Positions 691 through 16,397 of a stretch of DNA of 33,848 bases are shown piece by piece; within the stretch, counting starts at the first letter, position 1, and each line of letters starts with the position of its first letter. The translations under genes and the position numbers were made by a program. The DNA is from Sulfurovum sp. FS08-3 (GTDB taxonomy: Bacteria; Campylobacterota; Campylobacteria; Campylobacterales; Sulfurovaceae). The DNA lies in NCBI GenBank assembly GCA_000830175.1, contig JQIS01000028.1:1-33848 (forward strand), in the 5' to 3' direction. Under the pieces are notes generated by a model. That model did not search any database. It was not told the origin of the DNA and saw nothing but the letters and a program-made list of their open reading frames with translations.

Positions 691-3600
691 ATGAAAAAAT
701 ATCGCTTTTTGAAAGCACTATTTTTGGCAATGCTCTTCTCTTCGTCCGCTGTAGCTACAAATACTTGCGATGGTGGTTTATGTTCAAATGATCTATCTAA
801 CTGTAGCATAGATGCAGACTGTAATGCGGTTACTGTAGGAGGTGGTATAGGCGTTGCCCCTACTTTTGAGAATGCACCTTCAGTCTCTATCACAGTTCCC
901 AAAGACCAACCTACACAACTTCTCTCCCATTTCAGGGTAAACTACTCAGGTGTAGGTACGCTCACATGGAGCGAGAAGACTGCTCCTACTAAAGGCACTC
1001 TATATATTGATAGCGCAACATCATCAGGGAGTAGCCCCTATGAACCTAACTCTATAGAGTACACCCCCGATACGGGAGTATCAGGAGTCGATACTTTTAC
1101 TATCGAGGTAAGTGATGGTTCAGCTACTGCGACCATAGATGTCACCGTCACGATTGCCAATCCTCTTCCCCTTGGTTGGACAGATTTGGGTAATGGCTTC
1201 TATTTGGAAGATAATAATGTCACTATCAACTGTACCGATGCTACAGCAGGAGCATCATCATCTACGCCAAACAACGGCAAAATCTACACCAAAATCACGG
1301 CAAAAGCCCAACTCACAACTGAAGGTGGTGGAACAAACCCTGCCAATGCCTGTACGAGTGGGATTACGGATATGAATAGGTGGTTTAAGAGTAAACCTAC
1401 CTTCAATGAGGATATTTCGCATTGGGATACAAGCAGTGTGACGGATATGTATAGTATGTTTGAGGGTGCCACCGCATTTAACCAACCCATCGGCGATTGG
1501 GATACAAGCAAAGTGACGAATATGTATGGTGTGTTTTATAAAGCCTCCGCTTTCAATCAACCCATCGGCGATTGGAATACAAGCAGTGTGACGAATATGA
1601 GTTATTTGTTTGAGGGTGCCACCGCCTTTAACCAGCCCATCGGCAATTGGAATACAAGCAGTGTGACGGATATGGGTTATATGTTTTCTAGTGCCTCCGC
1701 CTTTAACCAACCCATCGGCAATTGGGATACAAGCAGTGTGAACAATATGAGGAGTATGTTTAGTAGTGTCTCTGCCTTTAACAAACTCATCAGCAATTGG
1801 GATACAAGCAAAGTGACGGATATGAGTAATATGTTTCTGGGTGCCACCGCCTTTAATCAAGACATTGGCAATTGGAATACAAGCAGTGTGACGAATATGA
1901 GTAGTATGTTTCAGGGTGCCACCGCCTTTAATCAAGACATTGGCAATTGGAATACAAGCAAAGTGACGAATATGGGTGGTATGCTTCGTAGTCTCGCCGC
2001 CTTTAATCAAGACATCGGCGATTGGAATACAAGCAGTGTGACGAATATGAGTAATATGTTTTCTAGTGCCACCGCCTTTAATCAAGACATCGGCGATTGG
2101 AATACAAGCAAAGTGACGAATATGAGTGGTATGTTTTATAATGCCTCCGCCTTTGACCAACCCATCGGCAATTGGGATACAAGCAAAGTGACGGATATGG
2201 GTAGTATGTTTCAGAATGCCTATGCCTTTAACCAATCCATCGGCGATTGGAATACAAGCAGTGTGATGTATATGAGTTTTATGTTTGATGGTGCTACCAC
2301 CTTTAACCAATGCCTCAAATCGTGGGATGTTCATAACTTTACCTCAATGCCTGGCAATTTTGATACCTCTTCGGGGTTTGCAAACGATACCACCAAGCAA
2401 CCCATTTGGGGAACGATTGGCACATCATGTAATGCCGCCCCAACCGCCAATCACTTCACCTACGCTACGGCTATCGGTAGCAGTGCCAAAACCTTTGATT
2501 GGAATACCTCTTCGGGTGCGAGTGATGCCGAGGGAGATCCCTATACCGCTACCGTTAAAACACAAGGAAGCAAAGGAGATGCCAATATTACAGGTACTCA
2601 TATCACCTATACTCCCAATGCCAACCAAAGCGGAAGCGATAAGATAATCATTACCATTACAGATAGCTACAATGGAAAAGTAGATGTTAATATCACCCTC
2701 AACGGTATCGATACCCTAGCCCCATCGCAACCTACTATCCACTCTACCAACGGTACAACTATCACAGGTACAGGCGAAGCAGGAGCGACTATCACGCTCA
2801 AAGACGGTAGCAATACTACTATCGGCACAGCAACCGTAGATAGCAATGGCACATGGAGCATTACCCCTACGACTCCCGTAAGCAGTGGCACAGCACTGAG
2901 TGCAACCCAAAGCGATAGCTACAACAACATTTCAGTAGCTTCAAGCAGTATGAGTGTATTACCCTCCGATTGGACAAACATAGGCAACGGCTTCTGGATA
3001 GAATCCAACGGCGTAACAGTCAATTGCGACTACAACACCAGTGCCTCATCCAACGATTACAACGGCAAAACTTATACCAAAATCACAACGGTAAACGACC
3101 TCAATACCAGTGGTGGAAACGTAGCCCCTGCCAATGCCTGTACGAGTGGGATTACGAGTATGAATAGGTGGTTTAAGAGTAAATCTACCTTCAATGAGGA
3201 TATCTCGCATTGGGATACAAGCAGTGTGACGACTATGAGTAGTATGTTTCGTGGAGCCTCCGTCTTTAACCAACCCATCAGCGATTGGAATACAAGCAGT
3301 GTGACGAATATGTCCGTTATGTTTTCCTATGCCTCCGCCTTTAATCAACCCATCGGCGATTGGAATACAAGCAGTGTGACGGATATGCATGGTATGTTTA
3401 ACTATGCCTCCGCCTTTAACCAACCCATCGGCGATTGGAATACAAGCAGTGTGACGGATATGGGTAATATGTTTACTGGTGTCTCTGCCTTTAACAAACC
3501 CATCGGCGATTGGGATACAAGCAAAGTGACGAGTATGTATGGTATGTTCCGGAATGCCTCCGCTTTCAATCAACCCATCGGCGATTGGAATACAAGCAGT

Positions 3601-5679
3601 GTGACAACTATGACCGAAATGTTTAACGGTGCTACCGCCCTCTCTAGTGCCAACGAGTGTGCTATTGTCAGAGGATGGGATGTAAATGAAACCTATGCCA
3701 ACGCAACGCTCTACATTACAGGAAGCAACAGCGGGTTTGATATGGAGGTGTGCCGTGATAGAACCCCCGATAGCTTTAGCTTCACCGCCCTTACCAATCA
3801 AGCCCGAAGTACGCTATTGACATCCAACAGTGTAACAATCAATGGAATCGATGCTAATACCTCGGTCTCTATTAGCGGTGGAGAGTATGAAATCAACGGA
3901 GATAGCAACTGGACAACGACAAGCTCTACCGTCGATAGTGGAGATACTGTCACAGTACGATTAACCTCTTCAAGTAGCTATAGCACCAAAGTATCTGCAA
4001 CCCTTACCGTAGGGACATTAGCTAGAGCCTTTGAGGTCACCACACTAAACGCTCCCCCACCACCCCCAACAGCAAGTGAACTGGCAATGCAAAAAGTGCA
4101 ACAAGTCATCAAAGACAAAGCCACGACCCTTATCACTTCGCAAGAACTCAATGCTATTGGCGGTGTATCGGGTGCAGTTGAGGGAGTAGAGTACAGCAAA
4201 GCTTTGGCAAATGGCACATACCAAGACCCCGCCAACCCAACAGCCAGTGAGATACAAGCCATCATCGATGCCCTCAACACCCAAAACGACCAAACGATGG
4301 ATAAAATCGTGCGTGTCATTGGTGGAGAGAGCAATATCACCATCGAAGCCTACGAGCTTAACGATTTAGCCAATGTATCGGGAGCGGTAGTAGGAGTAAA
4401 CTACAATCAAGCGCTTGCAGAGGGAAGCTACAAAGATAGACTCAACCCCACCAGTGCCGAGATACAAGCCGTTATCAATAGCCTCAATACTCAAAATGAG
4501 CAAACGATGGATAAGATTGTACGCATTATCGCAGGTGAGAGCCTCACTATCAACGCCCACGAACTCAACAGCCTAGCCAACGTAACAGGAGCTATAGAGG
4601 GAGTCGATTACAGCGATGCTCTAGCAAACGGCAGATACAGCGACAAAGCCAATCCTACCAGTGAGGAGATACAAGCCATCATTAACGCCCACAACCAAAC
4701 ACTGCTAGAGACTCCTACGGAGGATAACAGCACAACAGAAAACAACAGCAGTGAGCCAACACCAGAGGATAACGCTACTATCGAAGAACCAACCGTTGAT
4801 GAACCCACACCAGAGGACAACACTACTATTGAAGAACCAACAGTAGAAGAACCAATTGTTGAGGACAACGCTACCACTGAAGAACCAACCGTAGAAGAGC
4901 CAATTGTTGAGGACAACGCTACCACTGAAGAACCAACAGTAGATGAACCAATTGTTGAGGACAACGCTACTATCGAAGAACCCACCGTTGATGAACCCAC
5001 ACCAGAAGACAACACCACCAACCCACAAGCCTTTGCGATAGAAGTGCTTCAAACATTAGCCTCTTTTAGTCCCAACCTTGATATAGAGATACAAGAGGAT
5101 GACAAACAAAAACAAGCCCGTATCCTCGCTCCCAATGGCAATGAGATAGTAATCATCATCGACAACGCTACCCAAAGAGCAACGATAAGCATCACCAATC
5201 CCAACACAAACCAAACGCAAACTTTTGCGATTGAGCTTCGAGGGAGTCAAACCAATGTGGATGAAGAGGGGAATATACTCATCACTGCTTCAACCGATAC
5301 ACAAAGCTCTATTGAACTTAGAATTACCCAAGAGGGCAAACTTACCCACAAAGTAACCTTTGAGGGTCAAGTAAGCTTAGCGGAGTTTCAAGAAGATGCC
5401 AATACAAGTGTGGATGAAAACGGCACAGTAGAGAGTACTTTGGTAAAACGCAACGATAGATTTATCTTCAAAGCCGTAGTGGTCACAGACAAAAACGCAA
5501 AAAGCAGAACCAAGTTTGTCAAAATCAATCTTACTACAGGCGAAGAGATAGAGCTTGACAATACACTTCGTCAAGATATGCAGTTTGATGTAGGCAGTAA
5601 GTTTAAAATATTTATTGTCAATTACACAGTATTTATCAAAGCAACAACACTTATGAGTGGGGATTTGGTAATAGAGTAA
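691..5679 (+). CDS. BspA-like (DUF285) repeat surface/secreted protein, 1662 aa
   Basis: Large exported protein of unknown specific function, probably an adhesin or surface-layer component. Residues 1-22 form a signal peptide (MKK, hydrophobic core, SSAVA). A cadherin/Ig-like segment follows at about 50-155. Two blocks of 25-residue DUF285 repeats follow, each preceded by a WT-[DN]-[LI]-GNGF module with paired cysteines: about 13 units at 244-550 and 6 units at 840-985. The unit core is W-[DN]-TS-x-VT-x-M...F..A.AFNQPIG. Between the blocks are Ig-like (Big/bacterial Ig) segments, about 597-755. About 1130-1337 holds three copies of a ~65-aa module with a GV-[SDN]-Y...NP[TS] motif. An acidic, Pro/Thr-rich EDN/EEP spacer (about 1338-1440) leads to a C-terminal beta-rich domain. 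Start chosen at ATG 691, with AAAGGAA at 680-686. No LPXTG or obvious outer-membrane barrel was seen, so the export route is unclear. Confidence 0.85.
1420..2337 (+). repeat. 75-bp tandem coding repeats, block 1 (about 12-13 units)
   Basis: Each unit encodes one 25-residue DUF285 repeat. Many are nearly identical at DNA level (GATTGGAATACAAGCAG is common), with two alternating variants, TSSVT and TSKVT, and NQPIG versus NQDIG. Such identity suggests recent expansion and a tendency to change copy number. Confidence 0.9.
3208..3640 (+). repeat. 75-bp tandem coding repeats, block 2 (6 units)
   Basis: Second array of the same 75-bp unit in the same gene. Its leading module (about 3140-3210) is almost identical to the lead-in of block 1 (about 1350-1420), indicating a segmental duplication inside the gene. 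Confidence 0.9.
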
Positions 5680-9657: not shown

Positions 9658-11241
9658 CTAAAATCTATCATTTTCAACTCTCAACTCATAAAATCCAATC
9701 ATTTTAAAACAATAGAGCCAAAGAGTATAAAAATAGGCGATATGTAGGGCAATTTTTGTTCTTATTTGCTCTAAGTTGTTATCTTTTATGGCTCTTATGA
9801 GTTCTCTAAAGAGAGCTATCCCTATAAGGTTGAGTAGTCGCTTGAAGTTGTAGGTAAACATAATAAGAGCATTCTCTCCTGATACCTTCTCTTTGCCTCT
9901 CACCAAATAATGCTCCCAACCAAGATTGCGTTTAATAGTTCCAAAGGGGTGTTCGACGATTGAGCCTCTTTGTTTGATAAGCTCTTTGGCTTTATGGCTT
10001 TGCATCTTTTGGGTATAGGCTTCAATAGTATTGGCATATTGTGACCTTGAAATTCTTTTATAAGCTGTCTTTTGGGGTATGCACTTCTCTCTTAAGGGAC
10101 ACTCTTTGCAGGTTTTACTTTCTGCCCGATAAACATAATACTTCGTACCATTTTCTTTGATAATAGTTGATGAACTTTTGGTGAGTGTTTGATTATTGGG
10201 ACAGATATAACAATCGCTATCTTTATCGTATTGAAACTCTTTGGGAGTAAAGTACCCTCTATCTTTTTGTTGTTTGGTTTTATTGGGTATTGCAACAACG
10301 GTTTCAATACCATTGGCTTCACACTCATCAATCTCTTTGGCACTGTAATATCCACTATCAGCTAGAAAGATTCCCTTTTCATTGTGTGTTATGGCTTTAG
10401 TCTCTTGTGCCATTTGATGAAGTTTTTGATTATCATTGCCCTCACTGCTTACATCCGTTGCTACAATAAACTTATGTTTGGCATCTACGGCTATTTGGCT
10501 ATTGTATGCCATAAGGTTATGAGCAGGTTTGACCATCAATTTGGCATCAGGGTCTGTTTTGTTGTATTGATTTTCTCCCATCTCTTCAAGCATTGCTAGA
10601 TTTTTATCAAGTTGTGCTTTTTTGGCTTTTAGATTGGTAAGCTTCTTGCTCTCTTTAACCAGTAGGTTTTCACCTATATCATCGTTATCACTGGTTTCAA
10701 GTTGTGTGAGATATTCATTGATTTTTTCATCAATCTCTTTACTATCTTGTTGGAGTGTTTTTTTAGAGATGAGTTAATTTTTGGAGGCATTGGCTCTTAG
10801 AAATGCTCCATCTACTGCTACTACATCACCTGTGATTAAATCAATGTTTTTTAGTATCAAGCTAAACGCTTTAAATACTTGCTTAAGTGCTTGTGAGTGA
10901 TCTTTTCTAAAGTTGGCAATACTCTTATAAGTTGGCGTTAAATTCTCACACAGCCACATCATCTCTATATTGCGTTTGATTTCAGTTTCCAATCGTCTTG
11001 AAGAGCGTACACGGTTCATATAGCCATAGATATAGATTTTCAAGAAGAGTTTAGGATTATAAGCTTTTTGACCATCGAGGGAGTTTTTGAGGTTTTTATC
11101 TAGTTTTAATGTAGCAATATTGAGTATCTCGACATATTCATCAATGACTCTTACTGCATTATCTTCACTCACATACTCATCAAAGCTTGGTGGAAAGAGT
11201 AGTTGTTGTCTTCTATTATCTCCCTGCTTATATCGTGCCAT
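9658..11241 (-). pseudogene. IS1182-family transposase with one in-frame stop
   Basis: DDE transposase of the IS1182/InsH-like type. The first part (from ATG 11241, with GGGAGAG 8 bases upstream) has the DUF772-like N-terminal domain, FPPSFDEYV...VIDEYVEIL, then YKSIANFRKDH and the DG of VDGAF. A TAA at 10774-10776 follows ASKN. The frame then stays open without a break for 60 codons to a Met at 10593 and on to the stop at 9658. It carries the second catalytic region (VATDVSSEGNDNQKL, ADSGYYSAKE), a cysteine cluster (C..CPLREKC) and the C-terminal EHPFGTIKR with the catalytic Glu. Without the stop the protein would be about 527 aa, normal for the family. A single nonsense mutation (or programmed readthrough) therefore separates the halves. 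Confidence 0.9.
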
Positions 11242-11321
11242 AATCAATCTCTCCCAAAGTGGATAAATCTATCATCCAAAACTCTTTCAAAGCCCCTAAA
11301 TACAGGCGTTTGATTGCTATT

Positions 11322-11327
11322 ATTATA
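11322..11327 (-). promoter_or_regulatory. candidate -10 of the IS transposase
   Basis: On the minus strand GCTATAATAATAG gives a TATAAT about 80 bases before the transposase ATG at 11241. Confidence 0.35.
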
Positions 11328-11416
11328 GCTTTTTTGTGGTATTATTGGGGTAAGATATTCAATTAAACCAACTCGTTTAAGGTTGGGGTAAGGGGGTTGT
11401 TTCACGGTCTCTCCAG

Positions 11417-12502
11417 CTTCGTAACGAGGAAACGCCGACCGAAACCGTCGAGTACAATTACGACGCAAACGATAACCGCATCGCCAAAACTACAAGCAAT
11501 GGAACAACTACTTATCTAGTGGATACCAATACACCGTATGCACAAGTCATCACAGAATCCAAAGAAAATGGGACAAAAATAGGCTATACTTACGGAAATG
11601 ATCTTTTACATAATGGCACACATTTCTACCTCACTGATGCTTTGGGAAGCACGAGAGGATTGGTAGATAGTGGTGAGAGGCTTACTGATAGCTATAGTTA
11701 TACTCCGTATGGGGAGCTAAGCGAACATAACGGGACGAGTGAGAATAGCTTCTTGTTTACTGGGGAGCAGTTGGACCCTGAGACCGATGATTATTATTTG
11801 AGGGCGAGGTATTATTCACCGTCTTCTATTAGGTTTTTGAGTAGAGATAGTTATGATGGGACGCTTATAGAGCCGATAACGCTTAACCATTATGCTTATG
11901 CCCACTCTAATCCAACTATATTTATTGATCCATCGGGAAACATGGTTGCTACGCAACAAGAGCTAAGTTTTAATATAGCAGTAATAGGGCAACTTTCACA
12001 TACCAACATAAGAGCTACAGTTAAAGTGACAAGTTCTGTATTGTCACAACTTAGAGATAGTAAAAAATATATAATAAACCCTAGACATGGAGAAACTCAT
12101 TCGACTATTTATGCTACTGATATTCAGACATCAGGAGGATATATTTATGATTTGGAATATGATACCTATGATGAAGCAGATATAAGTTGGGATGTGTGGG
12201 AGAAGCGTATTGCTGTAGATGGTTGGATTAGAAAGAGAACTATTGATTCTTCACGAAACCCATTTTACACAAGTCCTGTTAAACTTTCTTCATTTCAGTT
12301 TGAAGTTTGGGATTATATGATATTTGAAAAATATCCAATATATAGAGATATGTTTCCCGATAGAGTTACATCTAATCCTGATTATTTATTGGATACTACA
12401 CGACATCATCCGTATTTAGCAGATAAAATAAATTGTGTAAGTTATGTTAATGAAGCCTATAAGAAGGCTTGGTGGGTTATGTTACATATACCTTCAATAT
12501 AA
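11417..12502 (+). pseudogene. 5'-truncated RHS protein with variable C-terminal toxin domain
   Basis: The frame is open from the REP/IS junction and reads as the last YD repeats (EYNYDANDNR) and the RHS core: LTDALGSTRG, SYTPYGE, FTGEQLDPETDDYYLRARYY, then NHYAYAHSNPTIFIDPSG, which closes the core at about 11940. The remaining ~187 residues are the variable toxin tip and match no family I can name. They contain HSTIY near the front (about 12100) and a late DKINCVSYVNEAY (about 12424-12462). This His-early/Cys-late layout recalls permuted NlpC/P60-like or other papain-fold domains; that is inference. The N-terminal thousand-odd residues of a normal RHS protein are missing. A GTG at 11519 could start translation, but no ribosome site was seen. 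The immunity-like gene follows by 10 bp. Confidence 0.85.
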
Positions 12503-12512
12503 GGAGTATAAA

Positions 12513-13235
12513 ATGATTTCTAAATATAATAATAAAAACCAAACTATTGAGATAGAAGAGAACTATGTCTTACTTAAAATAGAAGATGATTATATGCAAA
12601 AATATTTGATAAATGAAATACAAGAAATATTTTTTAACATCGATGAAGAAGGTTATTATTTTAGAGTTATAGCTAATCGTCAAATTGCTTTTGATTATGA
12701 ACATAATACAAAATTCAGAATTGAAGATAAAGATATATTAATGAGAAAAGTAAAAAACAAAGAGATTAAATTACTTCCTAACTTTGGAATTGATTTAATA
12801 GGTGAAGGTGTTATGAAATATTGTCAAAGTAGAAAAAAATATTCTTTAATTATGACAAGAGTACGAAGCAAGATAATCCCTAACAAAAACTTATTTGCCA
12901 TTAATTATGGAAATATAAGTAGGTATTTTTATAAAATAATTGGTGATGATTTAAAAGACTTGAATTTGGAAGAAGAACTACTAGCAGAGCATGATAATCG
13001 TGATTTTACAAAACAACTACGAAACTTTGGTTCAAATTGTGTATTTTTATTGGACAAAAGTCTAACTCTTGGTCAAGGATATGCTATTACGGCTATTAAA
13101 GCAATGCCACATACTGATGGATTTCAAGATTTTTCTTTAGATGTTTTTTATTCATTTGATACGAAAGAAATAAAAAATAAAATTATTGAACTTTTATCTC
13201 CTTCTTATGTGATGAAAGAAAGTGGTTTTGTTTAA
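12513..13235 (+). CDS. putative immunity protein of the RHS toxin, 240 aa
   Basis: No recognised domain. It is soluble-looking, with no signal peptide or membrane segment, and rich in Lys, Ile, Asn and acidic residues. The position is the classic one: its ATG lies 10 bases after the RHS stop, with AAGGAG (12501-12506) overlapping the junction and 6 bases of spacing. In polymorphic toxin systems the gene directly after the toxin tip normally encodes the cognate immunity protein. An upstream in-frame ATG at 12444 lies inside the RHS coding end and was not used. Base composition is unusual: the stretch 12541-12600 has 15 G/C in 60, against 33 in 60 for a clpX stretch (15061-15120), pointing to recent acquisition. 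Function as an antidote is inferred from context alone. Confidence 0.7.
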   Translation: MISKYNNKNQTIEIEENYVLLKIEDDYMQKYLINEIQEIFFNIDEEGYYFRVIANRQIAFDYEHNTKFRIEDKDILMRKVKNKEIKLLPNFGIDLIGEGVMKYCQSRKKYSLIMTRVRSKIIPNKNLFAINYGNISRYFYKIIGDDLKDLNLEEELLAEHDNRDFTKQLRNFGSNCVFLLDKSLTLGQGYAITAIKAMPHTDGFQDFSLDVFYSFDTKEIKNKIIELLSPSYVMKESGFV

Positions 13236-13246
13236 TTTTTTTGCTC

Positions 13247-13270
13247 GTTGCGAAGCTCCAGCTTCGACAA
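13247..13270. repeat. REP-like palindrome, degenerate copy
   Basis: GTTGCGAAGCTCCAGCTTCG then ACAA, in inverted orientation to copies 1 and 2. It is followed by TGCCCTATTGGACTCTA and the ACTACATATACAAAACC spacer. It starts 12 bases after the immunity-gene stop. Confidence 0.65.
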
Positions 13271-13350
13271 TGCCCTATTGGACTCTAAAACCTCAATAAA
13301 ACTACATATACAAAACCAACCATTAACCTAAAAAAAATATAATACTTTCC
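13271..13350. repeat. partial repeat-unit spacer, first of a direct pair
   Basis: The segment from TGCCCTATTGGACTCTA through ACCATTAACC to ATAATAC recurs almost unchanged at about 13486-13560. The two copies flank the group II intron scrap. Confidence 0.75.
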
Positions 13351-13355
13351 TATAG

Positions 13356-13440
13356 GGGTAGAGAAGTGAAAACTCCCCTCCCTCCGAACCGTGCGTGCGG
13401 TTCTCCCGCATACGGCTCTCCAGTTGATAGTTTCCTCATC
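13356..13440 (-). mobile_element. 3' fragment of a group II intron (domains V-VI)
   Basis: On the minus strand, 13418-13386 reads GAGCCGTATGCGG, a GAGAA loop region, then CCGCACGCACGGTTC. That is a 33-base hairpin with the AGC triad near its start and a two-base bulge, as in catalytic domain V. It is followed by GGAGGGAGGGG and a second short hairpin region ending CTACCCCTAT, as expected for domain VI and the intron 3' end. No reverse transcriptase frame remains, so this is a dead remnant. The assignment rests on the domain V consensus recalled from known introns. Confidence 0.75.
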
Positions 13441-13463
13441 GGGATTGATACGCCTTTTACTCG

Positions 13464-13485
13464 TTACGAAGCTCCAGCTTCGTAA
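13464..13485. repeat. REP-like palindrome, inverted copy
   Basis: Perfect arms TTACGAAGCT and AGCTTCGTAA around a CC centre, with ATGCCCTATTGG after it. This is the complement of the flank of copies 1 and 2. Confidence 0.8.
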
Positions 13486-13582
13486 TGCCCTATTGGACTC
13501 TACAACCTCAATAAAACTACATATACAAAACCAACCATTAACCTCAAAAAACTATAATACCCCACACATCCACACTTTTTGA

Positions 13583-13681
13583 CCTCTACGGTATGTGGAT
13601 GAGGCTCAACATTGGCGATACTCTAGTGCTAGAGATTATGAGGGTATCGAGGGTTTAATGGAGGTAGAAAGATTATGGTGA
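13583..13681 (+). pseudogene. C-terminal remnant of a REP-associated (Y1) transposase-like gene, copy 3
   Basis: The same frame as at 50-148 is kept, with GLMEVERLW in place of GLLKVERLW, ending in TGA at 13679-13681. Differences from the other copies include silent changes (GAT for GAC). Confidence 0.55.
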
Positions 13682-13701
13682 TGCATCAGACCAATAGGGC
13701 A

Positions 13702-13723
13702 TTACTAAGCTGGAGCTTCGTAA
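13702..13723. repeat. REP-like palindrome with one mutated arm
   Basis: TTACTAAGCT pairs with AGCTTCGTAA except at one base. It is directly followed by CGAGTAAAGTCCCACTTCCG. Confidence 0.7.
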
Positions 13724-13729
13724 CGAGTA

Positions 13730-13744
13730 AAGTCCCACTTCCGA
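13730..13744. repeat. AAGTCCCACTTCCGA repeat, left of the SIR2/ClpX operon
   Basis: The same motif returns as an inverted pair at 16313-16325 and 16385-16397 on the other side of the operon. Confidence 0.6.
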
Positions 13745-13802
13745 AATGTCACTCGTCTGCATATTTTACAAATAGAGTGCAATAGTTTTTGCATTTGGAT
13801 TG

Positions 13803-13820
13803 CAGGAACACTTATTGCAT
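13803..13820 (+). promoter_or_regulatory. candidate sigma54 (-24/-12) promoter of the SIR2-like/clpX operon
   Basis: AGGAAC-ACTTA-TTGCA places GG at 13805-13806 and GC at 13817-13818 with exactly 10 bases between, the diagnostic spacing for RpoN. The -12 half (TTGCA) is perfect; the -24 half has AGGAAC against TGGCAC. A start site near 13830 would leave about 20 bases of leader containing the GGGGA ribosome site before ATG 13849. No TGT-N10-ACA NifA-type site was found in the ~100 bases upstream. Confidence 0.5.
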
Positions 13821-13848
13821 CTTTATAAATAAAAAATGGGGATAGAGT

Positions 13849-14670
13849 ATGGAAAATATAAAAGAAAAATTAATCAATGGAGAGCTTGTACCCTTTGTAG
13901 GTATGGGAGTCTTTGCCAATACCCAAGCCAGTGATGGCACACAGTTGCCCTTTGATAGCGATTCGATGATACTAGCTCTTAATAATGGTCGAGCGATGAG
14001 TGCAAGATTGATGTATGAGTACAGTCGAGCCGCCATGAGTTTAGAGCAACGCAAAGGTAGAGAGTATATCACCCAAATGACCAACCATATCTACGCCTCC
14101 AAAGAGTATGCTCCTCCTTTTGTCTATCAATACCTCAAAACTCTTCAACCCAAATACCTAATCGATACCAATATGGACGACAGCTCTACTACCGTTTATG
14201 AAGATGTGGCTCACTTTATGATTACAGGTGTTTCACGCGTGATGGGAGGGTATGAACGCTTTGTTATCTATCGCTACAACCTTGAAACCAAAGCGTATAT
14301 TAAGATAGAAAATGAGTTGCTTGATGATTCATTGCCTATACTCTTTAAGCCTATGGGATGTATGACTCCAAAGATGGATTTTATTGTCTCCGATGCCGAT
14401 TTTGTCGATTGGCTTACTGAGGCGATGGGGGGATACGCCTTGCCGCCTTTTCTCAAAAGCTACAAAAACGATAAATCTTATCTCTTTTTGGGTGTGGACT
14501 TTGGTCGTGATACCTTTAGAATGGTAGCCAATGAGATTACACTAGGGCTTAGTGGCGGAGTGGTGGTGACAAACAAGGAGGAACTCACCAAAAAAGAGCA
14601 AAAATTCATCGATACCCACAATCTTGAAGTTGTCCAAAACGAGGTTGATAGCTTTTTAAAGGAGTTGTAA
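13849..14670 (+). CDS. degenerate SIR2-like domain protein, 273 aa
   Basis: The landmarks of a SIR2_2-type Rossmann domain appear in order: LVPFVGMGVF (about 12-21) in place of the GAGxS loop, YLIDTNMDD (about 104-112) for the TxNxD motif, FKPMG (about 166-170) where K-x-HG is expected, IVSDADFVDWL for the following T-x-x-D-[YF] segment, and YLFLGVDFGRD (about 210-220) for the late LF-[IL]-G-x-x-x-x-D motif. The catalytic His is replaced by Met169, and the small Ser of the GAGxS loop by Phe. Deacylase or NADase activity is therefore doubtful; NAD binding or sensing remains possible. The ATG has GGGGA upstream. Its stop overlaps the clpX start (TAATG), so the two are translationally coupled. 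A sigma54-type promoter lies just upstream. Family assignment comes from motif order. Confidence 0.7.
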   Translation: MENIKEKLINGELVPFVGMGVFANTQASDGTQLPFDSDSMILALNNGRAMSARLMYEYSRAAMSLEQRKGREYITQMTNHIYASKEYAPPFVYQYLKTLQPKYLIDTNMDDSSTTVYEDVAHFMITGVSRVMGGYERFVIYRYNLETKAYIKIENELLDDSLPILFKPMGCMTPKMDFIVSDADFVDWLTEAMGGYALPPFLKSYKNDKSYLFLGVDFGRDTFRMVANEITLGLSGGVVVTNKEELTKKEQKFIDTHNLEVVQNEVDSFLKEL

Positions 14671-15887
14671 TGGAGCAAAGCAGACTAATGTGTGATTTTT
14701 GCGGTAAGGGTGTAGCGGAGGTTGATAAAATCTTTAGTGCTGAAAATGCCCATATTTGCAACGAGTGTATCGAAACTTGCTCAACCATTCTCCACAAAGA
14801 ACATATCAAAAAAAATAAAAAAGAGTTTCAAAAGGGTTTAAGCATCCCTACCAAAATCAAAGAGCATTTGGATGGCTACGTGATAGGGCAAGATGAGGCA
14901 AAGAAAGTACTAAGTGTCGCACTCTATTCACACTACAAACGCATCGAAAAGCCTATTCTCCATGATGTAGAGATCGAAAAATCCAATATCATGCTTATAG
15001 GTCCTACGGGAAGCGGTAAGACACTCCTTGCTAAATCTTTGGCTAAAATTATGAATGTACCCTTTGCGATAGCCGATGCTACGGCTTTGACAGAGGCTGG
15101 ATATGTGGGTGAGGATGTCGAATCGATCCTCTCACGCCTTTTGGCTGCGGCGGATTTTGATGTGGCTAAGGCTCAAAAGGGGATTATCTACATCGACGAA
15201 ATCGACAAAATAGCCAATAAAAGCGAGAGTGCTTCAAGCGGGCGAGATGTAAGCGGTGAGGGGGTTCAACAAGGATTGCTTAAGATTTTGGAGGGCGGAG
15301 AGGTCTATGTGCCTATCAAAGGAAGTCGCAAAAGCTCTTCTGCGGAGACGATTTTGTTTGATACCACGCACGTGCTTTTTATTTGCGGTGGTGCATTTGT
15401 GGGGCTTGTGGAGGATGATAAGCACAAACGCAAAGATAAAACGATGGGCTTTTTAAACGCCAACGCCGTCGAATCCCAAAAAGAGATAGCACCCAAAGAT
15501 TTGATAGGTTTTGGACTTATTCCCGAATTTATCGGACGTATCCCTGTGGTAGCTACGCTCAATCCGCTCACAATTGAGGATCTTGTATCTATCTTGCAAG
15601 AGCCAAAAAATGCTATTATCAAACAATACAAAGCCCTCTTTGAGCTTGATGGGGTGGAGCTTGAAGTAGAAGATGAGGCGTTGCACTATATCGCTCAAAT
15701 GGCGTGGGAGACGGGAGTGGGAGCAAGGGGACTAAGGGGAATCATTGAAAAAATCATGCTCCCGCTTCAATACGAACTCCCCGCCAAAGACAATATCGAT
15801 AGATGCATCCTTACCAAAGCCTTTATCAAGCAAGAAGCCGATGTGATACTTGAATATACCAGCCAAACGGAGCGTGAAAATGGATGA
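14670..15887 (+). CDS. clpX: ClpX-type AAA+ unfoldase, divergent paralog candidate, 405 aa
   Basis: Hexameric unfoldase that feeds ClpP. Present are a C4 zinc-binding domain (CDFC...CNEC, about 9-32), Walker A GPTGSGKT (about 112-119), the pore loop GYVG, Walker B YIDEIDKI (about 174-181), the GLIPEFIGR segment, and sensor 2 GARGLRG. A MGF tripeptide (about 257-260) stands where the ClpP-binding IGF loop belongs, so ClpP docking looks retained. The substrate-tag loop reads SRKSSS instead of the near-invariant RKH, which implies changed tag recognition. Gene context differs from the fabZ-lpxA-clpX-mreB order of some Campylobacterota such as Helicobacter. It is coupled to a SIR2-like gene before it and overlaps a 116-aa gene after it. 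It may be a second, specialised ClpX; whether the genome has another cannot be seen here. Confidence 0.9.
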   Translation: MEQSRLMCDFCGKGVAEVDKIFSAENAHICNECIETCSTILHKEHIKKNKKEFQKGLSIPTKIKEHLDGYVIGQDEAKKVLSVALYSHYKRIEKPILHDVEIEKSNIMLIGPTGSGKTLLAKSLAKIMNVPFAIADATALTEAGYVGEDVESILSRLLAAADFDVAKAQKGIIYIDEIDKIANKSESASSGRDVSGEGVQQGLLKILEGGEVYVPIKGSRKSSSAETILFDTTHVLFICGGAFVGLVEDDKHKRKDKTMGFLNANAVESQKEIAPKDLIGFGLIPEFIGRIPVVATLNPLTIEDLVSILQEPKNAIIKQYKALFELDGVELEVEDEALHYIAQMAWETGVGARGLRGIIEKIMLPLQYELPAKDNIDRCILTKAFIKQEADVILEYTSQTERENG

Positions 15888-16230
15888 TTTAGCCTCGGTC
15901 TATGAGTGGGCAAAAACTTATGATTTTGATGAGATAGAGTTGCAATACGCTACGATTTTGGCTCTCAAAATCCTTGATGGACAGTGCAAAATGGATTATG
16001 ACAACTACAACCTCTTTATGTCTGCTTATGATGGCATTTGCGACAAAACCGCCTCCCCACTCAACAAAAAAGTACACCGTATCATCGCTTTGGCTCGAAC
16101 CGACGACCCAATCATCCCCAAAGCCCAATACAAAGAGGCTATCCACGCCCTTAGAGTTGCCATGATGCAAGATATGGAGAAATCCACCATGAAAGCCTTT
16201 AAGGAGCTAGTGTGGGGGAGTATCTGTTGA
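15880..16230 (+). CDS. unknown protein in the SIR2-like/clpX operon, 116 aa
   Basis: No recognised family. It is small, soluble and mostly helical by composition, with an N-terminal MDDLASVYEWA, acidic Tyr-rich stretches, and a C-terminal helix ending in a Cys. The ATG at 15880 overlaps the last 8 bases of clpX (ATGGATGA), with CGGAG nearby, so translation is coupled. An earlier TTG at 15850 was rejected because it lies deep in clpX. By position it is a candidate adaptor, substrate or antagonist of the ClpX before it; that is inference only. No terminator with a T-run was identified after it; an inverted repeat follows at 16313. Confidence 0.75.
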   Translation: MDDLASVYEWAKTYDFDEIELQYATILALKILDGQCKMDYDNYNLFMSAYDGICDKTASPLNKKVHRIIALARTDDPIIPKAQYKEAIHALRVAMMQDMEKSTMKAFKELVWGSIC

Positions 16231-16312
16231 TGGGTGGGTTGCAAAACTTTTTTAGCCGAACATTTAGAGGTTATTAGCTGACCTTACGCAGCTGCTCTAT
16301 AATGGTATTTTT

Positions 16313-16397
16313 GGAAGTGGGACTTCACCCTCACCTATTAGCTTCGATAGTAATAACAACCAAATTTTGGCTTTTGTGGGACTAAAGTCCCGCTTCC
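16313..16397. repeat. inverted pair of GGAAGTGGGACTT repeats
   Basis: GGAAGTGGGACTT (16313-16325) is nearly the complement of AAGTCCCGCTTCC (16385-16397). The right arm also contains the palindrome GGGACTAAAGTCCC. The motif matches the copy at 13730-13744, so the three-gene operon is bracketed by the same dispersed repeat. Confidence 0.65.

Follow-up and report, generated by a model that had tools for sequence, protein, structure and literature searches.

A SIR2-like/ClpX gene module of Sulfurovum sp. FS08-3 linked to nitrogen fixation in Campylobacterota

Azotobacter carries a second ClpX alongside its housekeeping ClpX. This protein, ClpX2, has been reported to regulate NifB and NifEN levels in Azotobacter vinelandii (Martinez-Noel et al. 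2011, as cited in PMC8594446 and PMC3916325) and is 76% identical to an Azoarcus ClpX encoded beside clpP; expression of Azoarcus clpX and clpP goes up about 2-fold under N2 fixation (PMC3916325). SIR2_2-domain proteins are, in turn, encoded in nif clusters of Rhizobium (nifA-nifB-fdxN-nifT-SIR2), of Rhodobacter capsulatus, where the protein (Rcc03262) was not detected in a nifA mutant (PMC6925177), and of Zymomonas, where ZMO1821 is upregulated under N2 fixation and the nif-island SIR2 protein was proposed to be a deacetylase, NifA, NifH and NifK being acetylated there (PMC8600466). Here we describe a three-gene module in a 33,848-nucleotide (nt) stretch of Sulfurovum sp. FS08-3 (contig JQIS01000028.1, ‘the window’) that combines a SIR2-like gene (sir2L), a second clpX (clpX2) and a gene for a protein of 116 amino acids (aa). 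On balance, we favour the reading that the module serves nitrogen fixation as a proteolysis unit under NifA/RpoN control, in which a pseudo-sirtuin is the sensor or adaptor. While nif-cluster SIR2 genes of Alphaproteobacteria and the nitrogen-fixation ClpX2 of Azotobacter are already known apart, our literature search found no paper joining SIR2, ClpX and nif in Campylobacterota, and the SIR2L-ClpX2 pairing, the separate ClpX lineage and the lost residues described below look new.

The first-pass annotation of this locus had raised a role in nitrogen fixation with no nif genes in view, and had suggested correlating the module with nif presence across the phylum. Both the genome and the phylum bear the idea out: Sulfurovum sp. 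FS08-3 has nifHDK, nifE, nifN, nifA and rpoN, and within our sample the module occurs only in genomes with nitrogenase genes. The nifH gene, above the family cut-off, is on contig C51, close to nifD, nifK, nifE and nifN; contig C44, separate from the SIR2L-ClpX2 block, carries nifA with a peroxiredoxin-like gene (c12) behind it. In a sample of 397 Campylobacterota genomes we detected nifH in 75; as one further genome, G418, has SIR2L without nifH but with an intact nifD, we counted 76 genomes as nif-positive and 321 as nif-negative. SIR2L, counted at a profile E-value below 1e-40 (two further matches near 1e-5 were left out), is encoded in 72 genomes, and ClpX2, told from housekeeping ClpX by score (577 bits for the lowest ClpX2, 504 for the next protein), in 56. 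All 72 and all 56 are nif-positive (72/76 and 56/76 of the nif-positive set, respectively), as are all 32 genomes with strong matches to the 116-aa family, and by the criteria used none of the 321 nif-negative genomes has SIR2L or ClpX2. With genomes treated as independent, Fisher p-values for the linkage of the three genes to nif range from 1e-26 to 1e-74; counted by genus, there are 26 nif-positive, 23 with SIR2L, 21 with ClpX2 and 12 with the 116-aa protein. A partial 116-aa match in G004, a nif-negative metagenome-assembled genome (MAG) of the same genus, counts neither way because it runs off the contig end. Finally, in the decaying nif cluster of another genome (L123, G259:C1), sir2L, nifH, nifB, nifD and nifE all appear to be in fragments; such joint breakage would be expected if SIR2L and the nif genes share a function.

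The arrangement of the genes points in the same direction. The three genes had been described as overlapping, and the open reading frame coordinates agree: TAATG at 14668-14672 makes a 1-nt overlap of the SIR2L and ClpX2 genes, and the ClpX2 and 116-aa genes share the 8 nt ATGGATGA at 15880-15887. A scan of genome contigs, surveying the neighbourhood in relatives as the first reading had advised, yielded 58 loci; going by their titles, every one is from Campylobacterota. The module sits inside the nif cluster in most of them, in the order c9, frdA-like, nifA, c12, sir2L, clpX2, then a 116-aa or GNAT gene, fdxN, nifB and nifV. The claim that the SIR2-like protein is tied to ClpX stands as far as adjacency goes, with sir2L and clpX2 overlapping or at most 5 nt apart in 34 of 38 loci, but fails as a general rule, since Sulfurospirillum and others have SIR2L without ClpX2; Sulfurospirillum-type loci read nifA-sir2L, with no clpX2. 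Sulfurospirillum arcachonense DSM 9755 (locus L070) has both genes. In Helicobacteraceae-type loci, sir2L-clpX2 is divergent from nifB-nifV.

Upstream of the module, positions 13804-13819 read AGGAACACTTATTGCA, a GG-N10-GC arrangement with TTGCA that had been taken for a -24/-12 promoter. While by a generic sigma54 matrix the site is unexceptional, with 8 other sites in the window scoring equal or higher, it is convincing once this generic scoring is replaced by the local nif-promoter form GGAAYN6TGCA, which has a background of 5e-5 per position and lies 36-45 nt ahead of nifH in the three loci scored. The 15-mer of the module is identical at 15 of 15 positions to the element 37 nt before the genome's own nifE, and near-identical elements precede its own nifH and nifN. 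The site thus has the GG-N10-GC spacing, the right distance to the first gene and a form shared with the genome's own nif promoters, and one rpoN is present. Across relatives, GGAAYN6TGCA precedes sir2L in 10 of the 18 loci that are detached from nifA/c12 as against 0 of the 36 that are attached (p = 1.8e-6), indicating that sir2L outside the nifA operon often has a nif promoter of its own. An upstream NifA site, TGT-N10-ACA, is lacking within 320 nt of the SIR2L ATG, and of the 9 other detached sir2L orthologues that have the promoter element, 8 likewise lack it upstream; with no such site near the module promoter, dependence on NifA is something that we infer. In several relatives rpoN itself lies inside the nif cluster (L045:17560-18795 in G006, and L047, L055 and L044), and these copies are possibly nif-dedicated.

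Two NCBIfam equivalog models identify ClpX2 as a ClpX, one at 555 bits (cut-off 359) and the other at 522 bits. It is not the sole ClpX of the genome: another clpX, which had been expected beside mreB or lpxA, is flanked on contig C10 by both (lpxA-clpX-mreB, the neighbours being what we take them to be by sight from their sequences), which is the usual setting of a housekeeping clpX, and the genome has one clpP. The identity of ClpX2 to this housekeeping ClpX is 50%, and to that of E. coli about 51%. As befits a ClpX unfoldase, it keeps the C4 zinc finger, Walker A/B, the GYVG pore loop and the MGF ClpP-docking loop, and most of the aligned ClpX2 rows retain Walker A/B, GYVG, the zinc finger, GARGLR and a docking loop of [VML]GF type. 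The residues that read the ssrA tag have changed. In E. coli ClpX, T199 and H230 contact the tag, the substitutions T199A, T199V and H230A greatly raise the Michaelis constant (KM) and cripple ssrA recognition, and human ClpX, in which both positions are Leu, leaves ssrA substrates undegraded (PMC7652416). The equivalents in this ClpX2 are Gly and Ser. The T199 position is Gly in 42 of 42 ClpX2 versus Thr in 20 of 20 other ClpX, and, among the rows displayed, the RKH-loop His (H230) gives way to RKS, RKN or RKE in 20 ClpX2 rows versus RKH in the housekeeping ones. Lacking both Thr199 and the RKH-loop His of a housekeeping, ssrA-reading ClpX, ClpX2 is predicted to work as an unfoldase but not to read ssrA. 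In a maximum-likelihood tree, the sample for which did not include Azotobacter ClpX2, all ClpX2 form one clade (support 100/100), parted by a long branch from the housekeeping ClpX of Campylobacterota and the other ClpX sampled. In the closest MAG (G003; L058/L054), codon 346 of clpX2 is TGA in place of TGG, a stop instead of Trp, which shortens the protein to 345 aa; the contig being of low coverage, sequencing error and recent loss are indistinguishable.

SIR2L matches Pfam SIR2_2 barely above the cut-off (24.9 versus 24.5 bits). Its SIR2 (Rossmann) fold is also seen in the AlphaFold2 model (predicted local distance difference test score of 94.4), the closest folds to which, as judged by Foldseek, are the SIR2 domains of DSR2, KomC and AVAST5 (E-values of about 1e-9 to 1e-7 and template modelling scores of 0.57-0.69 for DSR2/KomC). 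While SIR2L shares this fold with the SIR2 NADases DSR2, KomC and ThsA, those enzymes keep the catalytic His (H171 in DSR2, H152 in ThsA) and SIR2L has lost it. The position, mapped via ThsA H152 (to which the Methylococcus relative gives a weak match) and a six-protein alignment, is Met169 here, and the His is missing in all readable Campylobacterota orthologues, which have KPMG, KPLG or QPMG. Asn108 is kept, and is at least 90% conserved among orthologues; the full catalytic pair of Asn and His of an active sirtuin or SIR2 NADase is lacking. Rhizobial nif-cluster relatives are found by tblastn at E-values down to 6e-18. Unlike SIR2L, the nif SIR2 proteins of Alphaproteobacteria and Methylococcus are uncoupled to clpX in the three regions compared, and identity to SIR2L is about 25%. 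In those aligned (the Rhodobacter and Zymomonas proteins lie outside the alignment), the pair is broken at the other residue or at both: two rhizobial relatives keep the His and have Trp in place of the Asn, and in the Methylococcus relative both are changed. Because these nif-cluster relatives, too, are without one or both catalytic residues, a pseudoenzyme is the better reading of SIR2L than a deacetylase as far as sequence can tell, and it may serve as an NAD (nicotinamide adenine dinucleotide) or ADP-ribose (adenosine diphosphate ribose) sensor or adaptor. In genomes without ClpX2, the sole changes in SIR2L are Y82F, L259I and the start, which are uninformative. On a plasmid of Methylococcus sp. 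EFPC2 (L117), we also observed a SIR2 family gene within a nif cluster and, about 10 kb off, a clpP-clpX-lon block.

The 116-aa protein has no family match in domain searches, and a fold search with its all-helical model gave no match at E ≤ 0.001. Since every genome with a strong match to it is nif-positive and encodes ClpX2 (p = 1.6e-6 by genome), it would be a better candidate than SIR2L for an obligate ClpX2 partner. A pseudouridine-synthase gene adjoins the 116-aa gene here and in two other genomes of the genus examined.

In the proteolysis unit that we favour, the three genes would constitute one nitrogen-fixation operon, read by sigma54-RNA polymerase and, presumably, NifA. ClpX2 would be a dedicated unfoldase docking on the single housekeeping ClpP; with its ssrA-reading residues lost, it would spare ordinary ClpX substrates and, by analogy with Azotobacter, may turn over chosen nitrogenase-assembly proteins or a regulator, NifB, NifEN and NifA being the candidates. 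SIR2L could then act as a non-catalytic sensor or adaptor, responsive to NAD or ADP-ribose, that selects substrates or gates the machine, with the 116-aa helical protein as the putative obligate partner of ClpX2. The resemblance to the Azotobacter system lies in a second ClpX tied to nitrogen fixation, here by nif-exclusive distribution, nif-cluster location and nif promoter form, and as far as this linkage shows the module may work in a like manner. In contrast, Azotobacter ClpX2 resembles a copy of a proteobacterial ClpX (the reported identity to the Azoarcus protein suggests as much), whereas the Campylobacterota ClpX2 is a separate clade coupled to SIR2L, and we favour separate origins for the two. 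We considered plasmid-borne ClpX as a source of Azotobacter-like ClpX2; the best 40 listed matches look housekeeping, most of them unchecked by context. A bolder version holds that the module is a private branch of ClpXP, of separate origin from Azotobacter ClpX2, that has given up recognising tags in general and is supplied with substrates by dedicated partners alone, among them a pseudo-sirtuin coupling degradation of assembly factors to NAD state; this we regard as possible but doubtful.

Several observations weigh against the favoured reading. Genomes are not independent samples, which weakens the p-values, and the association of the 116-aa protein with ClpX2 drops to p = 0.03 by genus. 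Within nif-positive genomes, that of SIR2L with ClpX2 is itself weak (p = 0.05): 17 of the 72 SIR2L genomes, 14 of them from one genus and Sulfurospirillum among them, lack ClpX2, and G209 has ClpX2 without SIR2L. Being present in these genomes, and also in rhizobia that have no coupled clpX, SIR2L cannot act solely through ClpX2, and because such diazotrophs exist a direct partnership of the two is a proposal on our part. Furthermore, a PDB sequence search with the SIR2L profile returned nothing meaningful and matched no solved relative.

The main weakness is the room that these 17 genomes leave for a NifA-directed role. SIR2L might act on NifA and not via ClpX2, with SIR2L and the peroxiredoxin-like protein as redox/NAD sensors replacing NifL and ClpX2 merely co-regulated. 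We consider this unlikely, yet it deserves to be taken seriously: SIR2L follows nifA, alone or behind c12, in most loci, including those of Sulfurospirillum; it tracks nif more tightly than ClpX2 does; and the aligned NifA proteins of this and related genomes are without the four-Cys redox motif of rhizobial and Methylococcus NifA, making a separate sensor plausible. However, where both partners exist the translational coupling is to ClpX2 and not to NifA, the Helicobacteraceae-type loci set the pair against nifB instead of nifA, in Sulfurovum sp. FS08-3 SIR2L has stayed with ClpX2 apart from nifA-c12, and rhizobia keep their SIR2 gene even though their NifA has the Cys motif. As for c12 itself (L121:15149-15667 on own contig C44, also L045 and L060-L109), a peroxiredoxin/Tpx-like gene that most relatives have between nifA and sir2L, the aligned proteins have no Cys at the expected peroxidatic place (the position being inferred) and a conserved Cys in a C-terminal GCH motif; it may be another pseudoenzyme or redox sensor of the nifA/sir2L operon. 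The 453-aa NifA of G006 (L045:8435-9796) ends short of the DNA-binding helix-turn-helix, which that of G000 keeps (L121:13648-15153 compared).

We give little credence to SIR2L being an active sirtuin that removes acetyl or other modifications from Nif proteins, opposed by a neighbouring GNAT and with ClpX2 degrading the modified forms. While a GNAT gene does lie near sir2L/clpX2 in several relatives and the Zymomonas proposal and acetylation data are of this kind, the module in the window has no GNAT, and the catalytic pair is broken throughout the readable Campylobacterota orthologues as well as in the rhizobial and Methylococcus relatives. It is similarly improbable that ClpX2 does general quality-control or chaperone work, has no substrates of its own and boosts ClpXP capacity during nitrogen fixation: its ATPase and docking motifs are intact and the induction of Azoarcus clpX and clpP would fit, but the clade-wide change at the ssrA-recognising residues and the long branch set it apart. 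An anti-phage module of SIR2 effector and AAA+ partner, which the first-pass annotation had listed as an alternative, can practically be dismissed. Although the nearest folds belong to defence proteins, SIR2L has no PADLOC match and no catalytic His, and its distribution is nif-exclusive, with the locus in nif clusters.

If correct, the favoured reading assigns a function class, nitrogen fixation, to an uncharacterised SIR2-like gene whose occurrences in nif clusters span two or more phyla, and speaks against its being a deacetylase; it also suggests that nitrogen fixation has acquired a ClpX of its own on more than one occasion. As a naturally occurring ClpX whose degron-reading residues are altered and which comes with candidate adaptors, ClpX2 would be useful for studying substrate choice. 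The system may also bear on building nitrogenase in new hosts, where NifB instability has been described as a bottleneck (PMC5715403).

Table 1. Coordinates of the module and its flanking elements in the window
Feature	Positions	Strand	Remarks
SIR2L gene	13849..14670	+	273 aa, SIR2-fold, predicted pseudoenzyme
ClpX2 gene (second ClpX, nif-specific clade)	14670..15887	+	405 aa
116-aa gene (all-helical protein)	15880..16230	+	ATG at 15880; 116 aa from there
nif-type sigma54 (-24/-12) element GGAACACTTATTGCA	13805..13819	+	ends 29 nt ahead of first ATG
Bracketing 20-nt inverted repeat (90%), left arm	13727..13746	+	adjoins 44-nt inverted repeat
Bracketing 20-nt inverted repeat, right arm	16309..16328	-	flanks three-gene module
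44-nt inverted repeat	13456-13499 / 13688-13731		beside left arm of bracketing repeat

The three-gene block was probably moved to its present site, apart from nifA-c12 and between inverted repeats (Table 1). Upstream of it, positions 9658-13750 of the window hold transposase fragments, an RHS-like fragment and repeated or inverted elements of 25-77 nt, which is consistent with a relocated module. Further off, positions 691-5679 encode a predicted 1662-aa surface protein with many repeated units of the N-W-D/N-T-S-x-V-T/N-x-M type.

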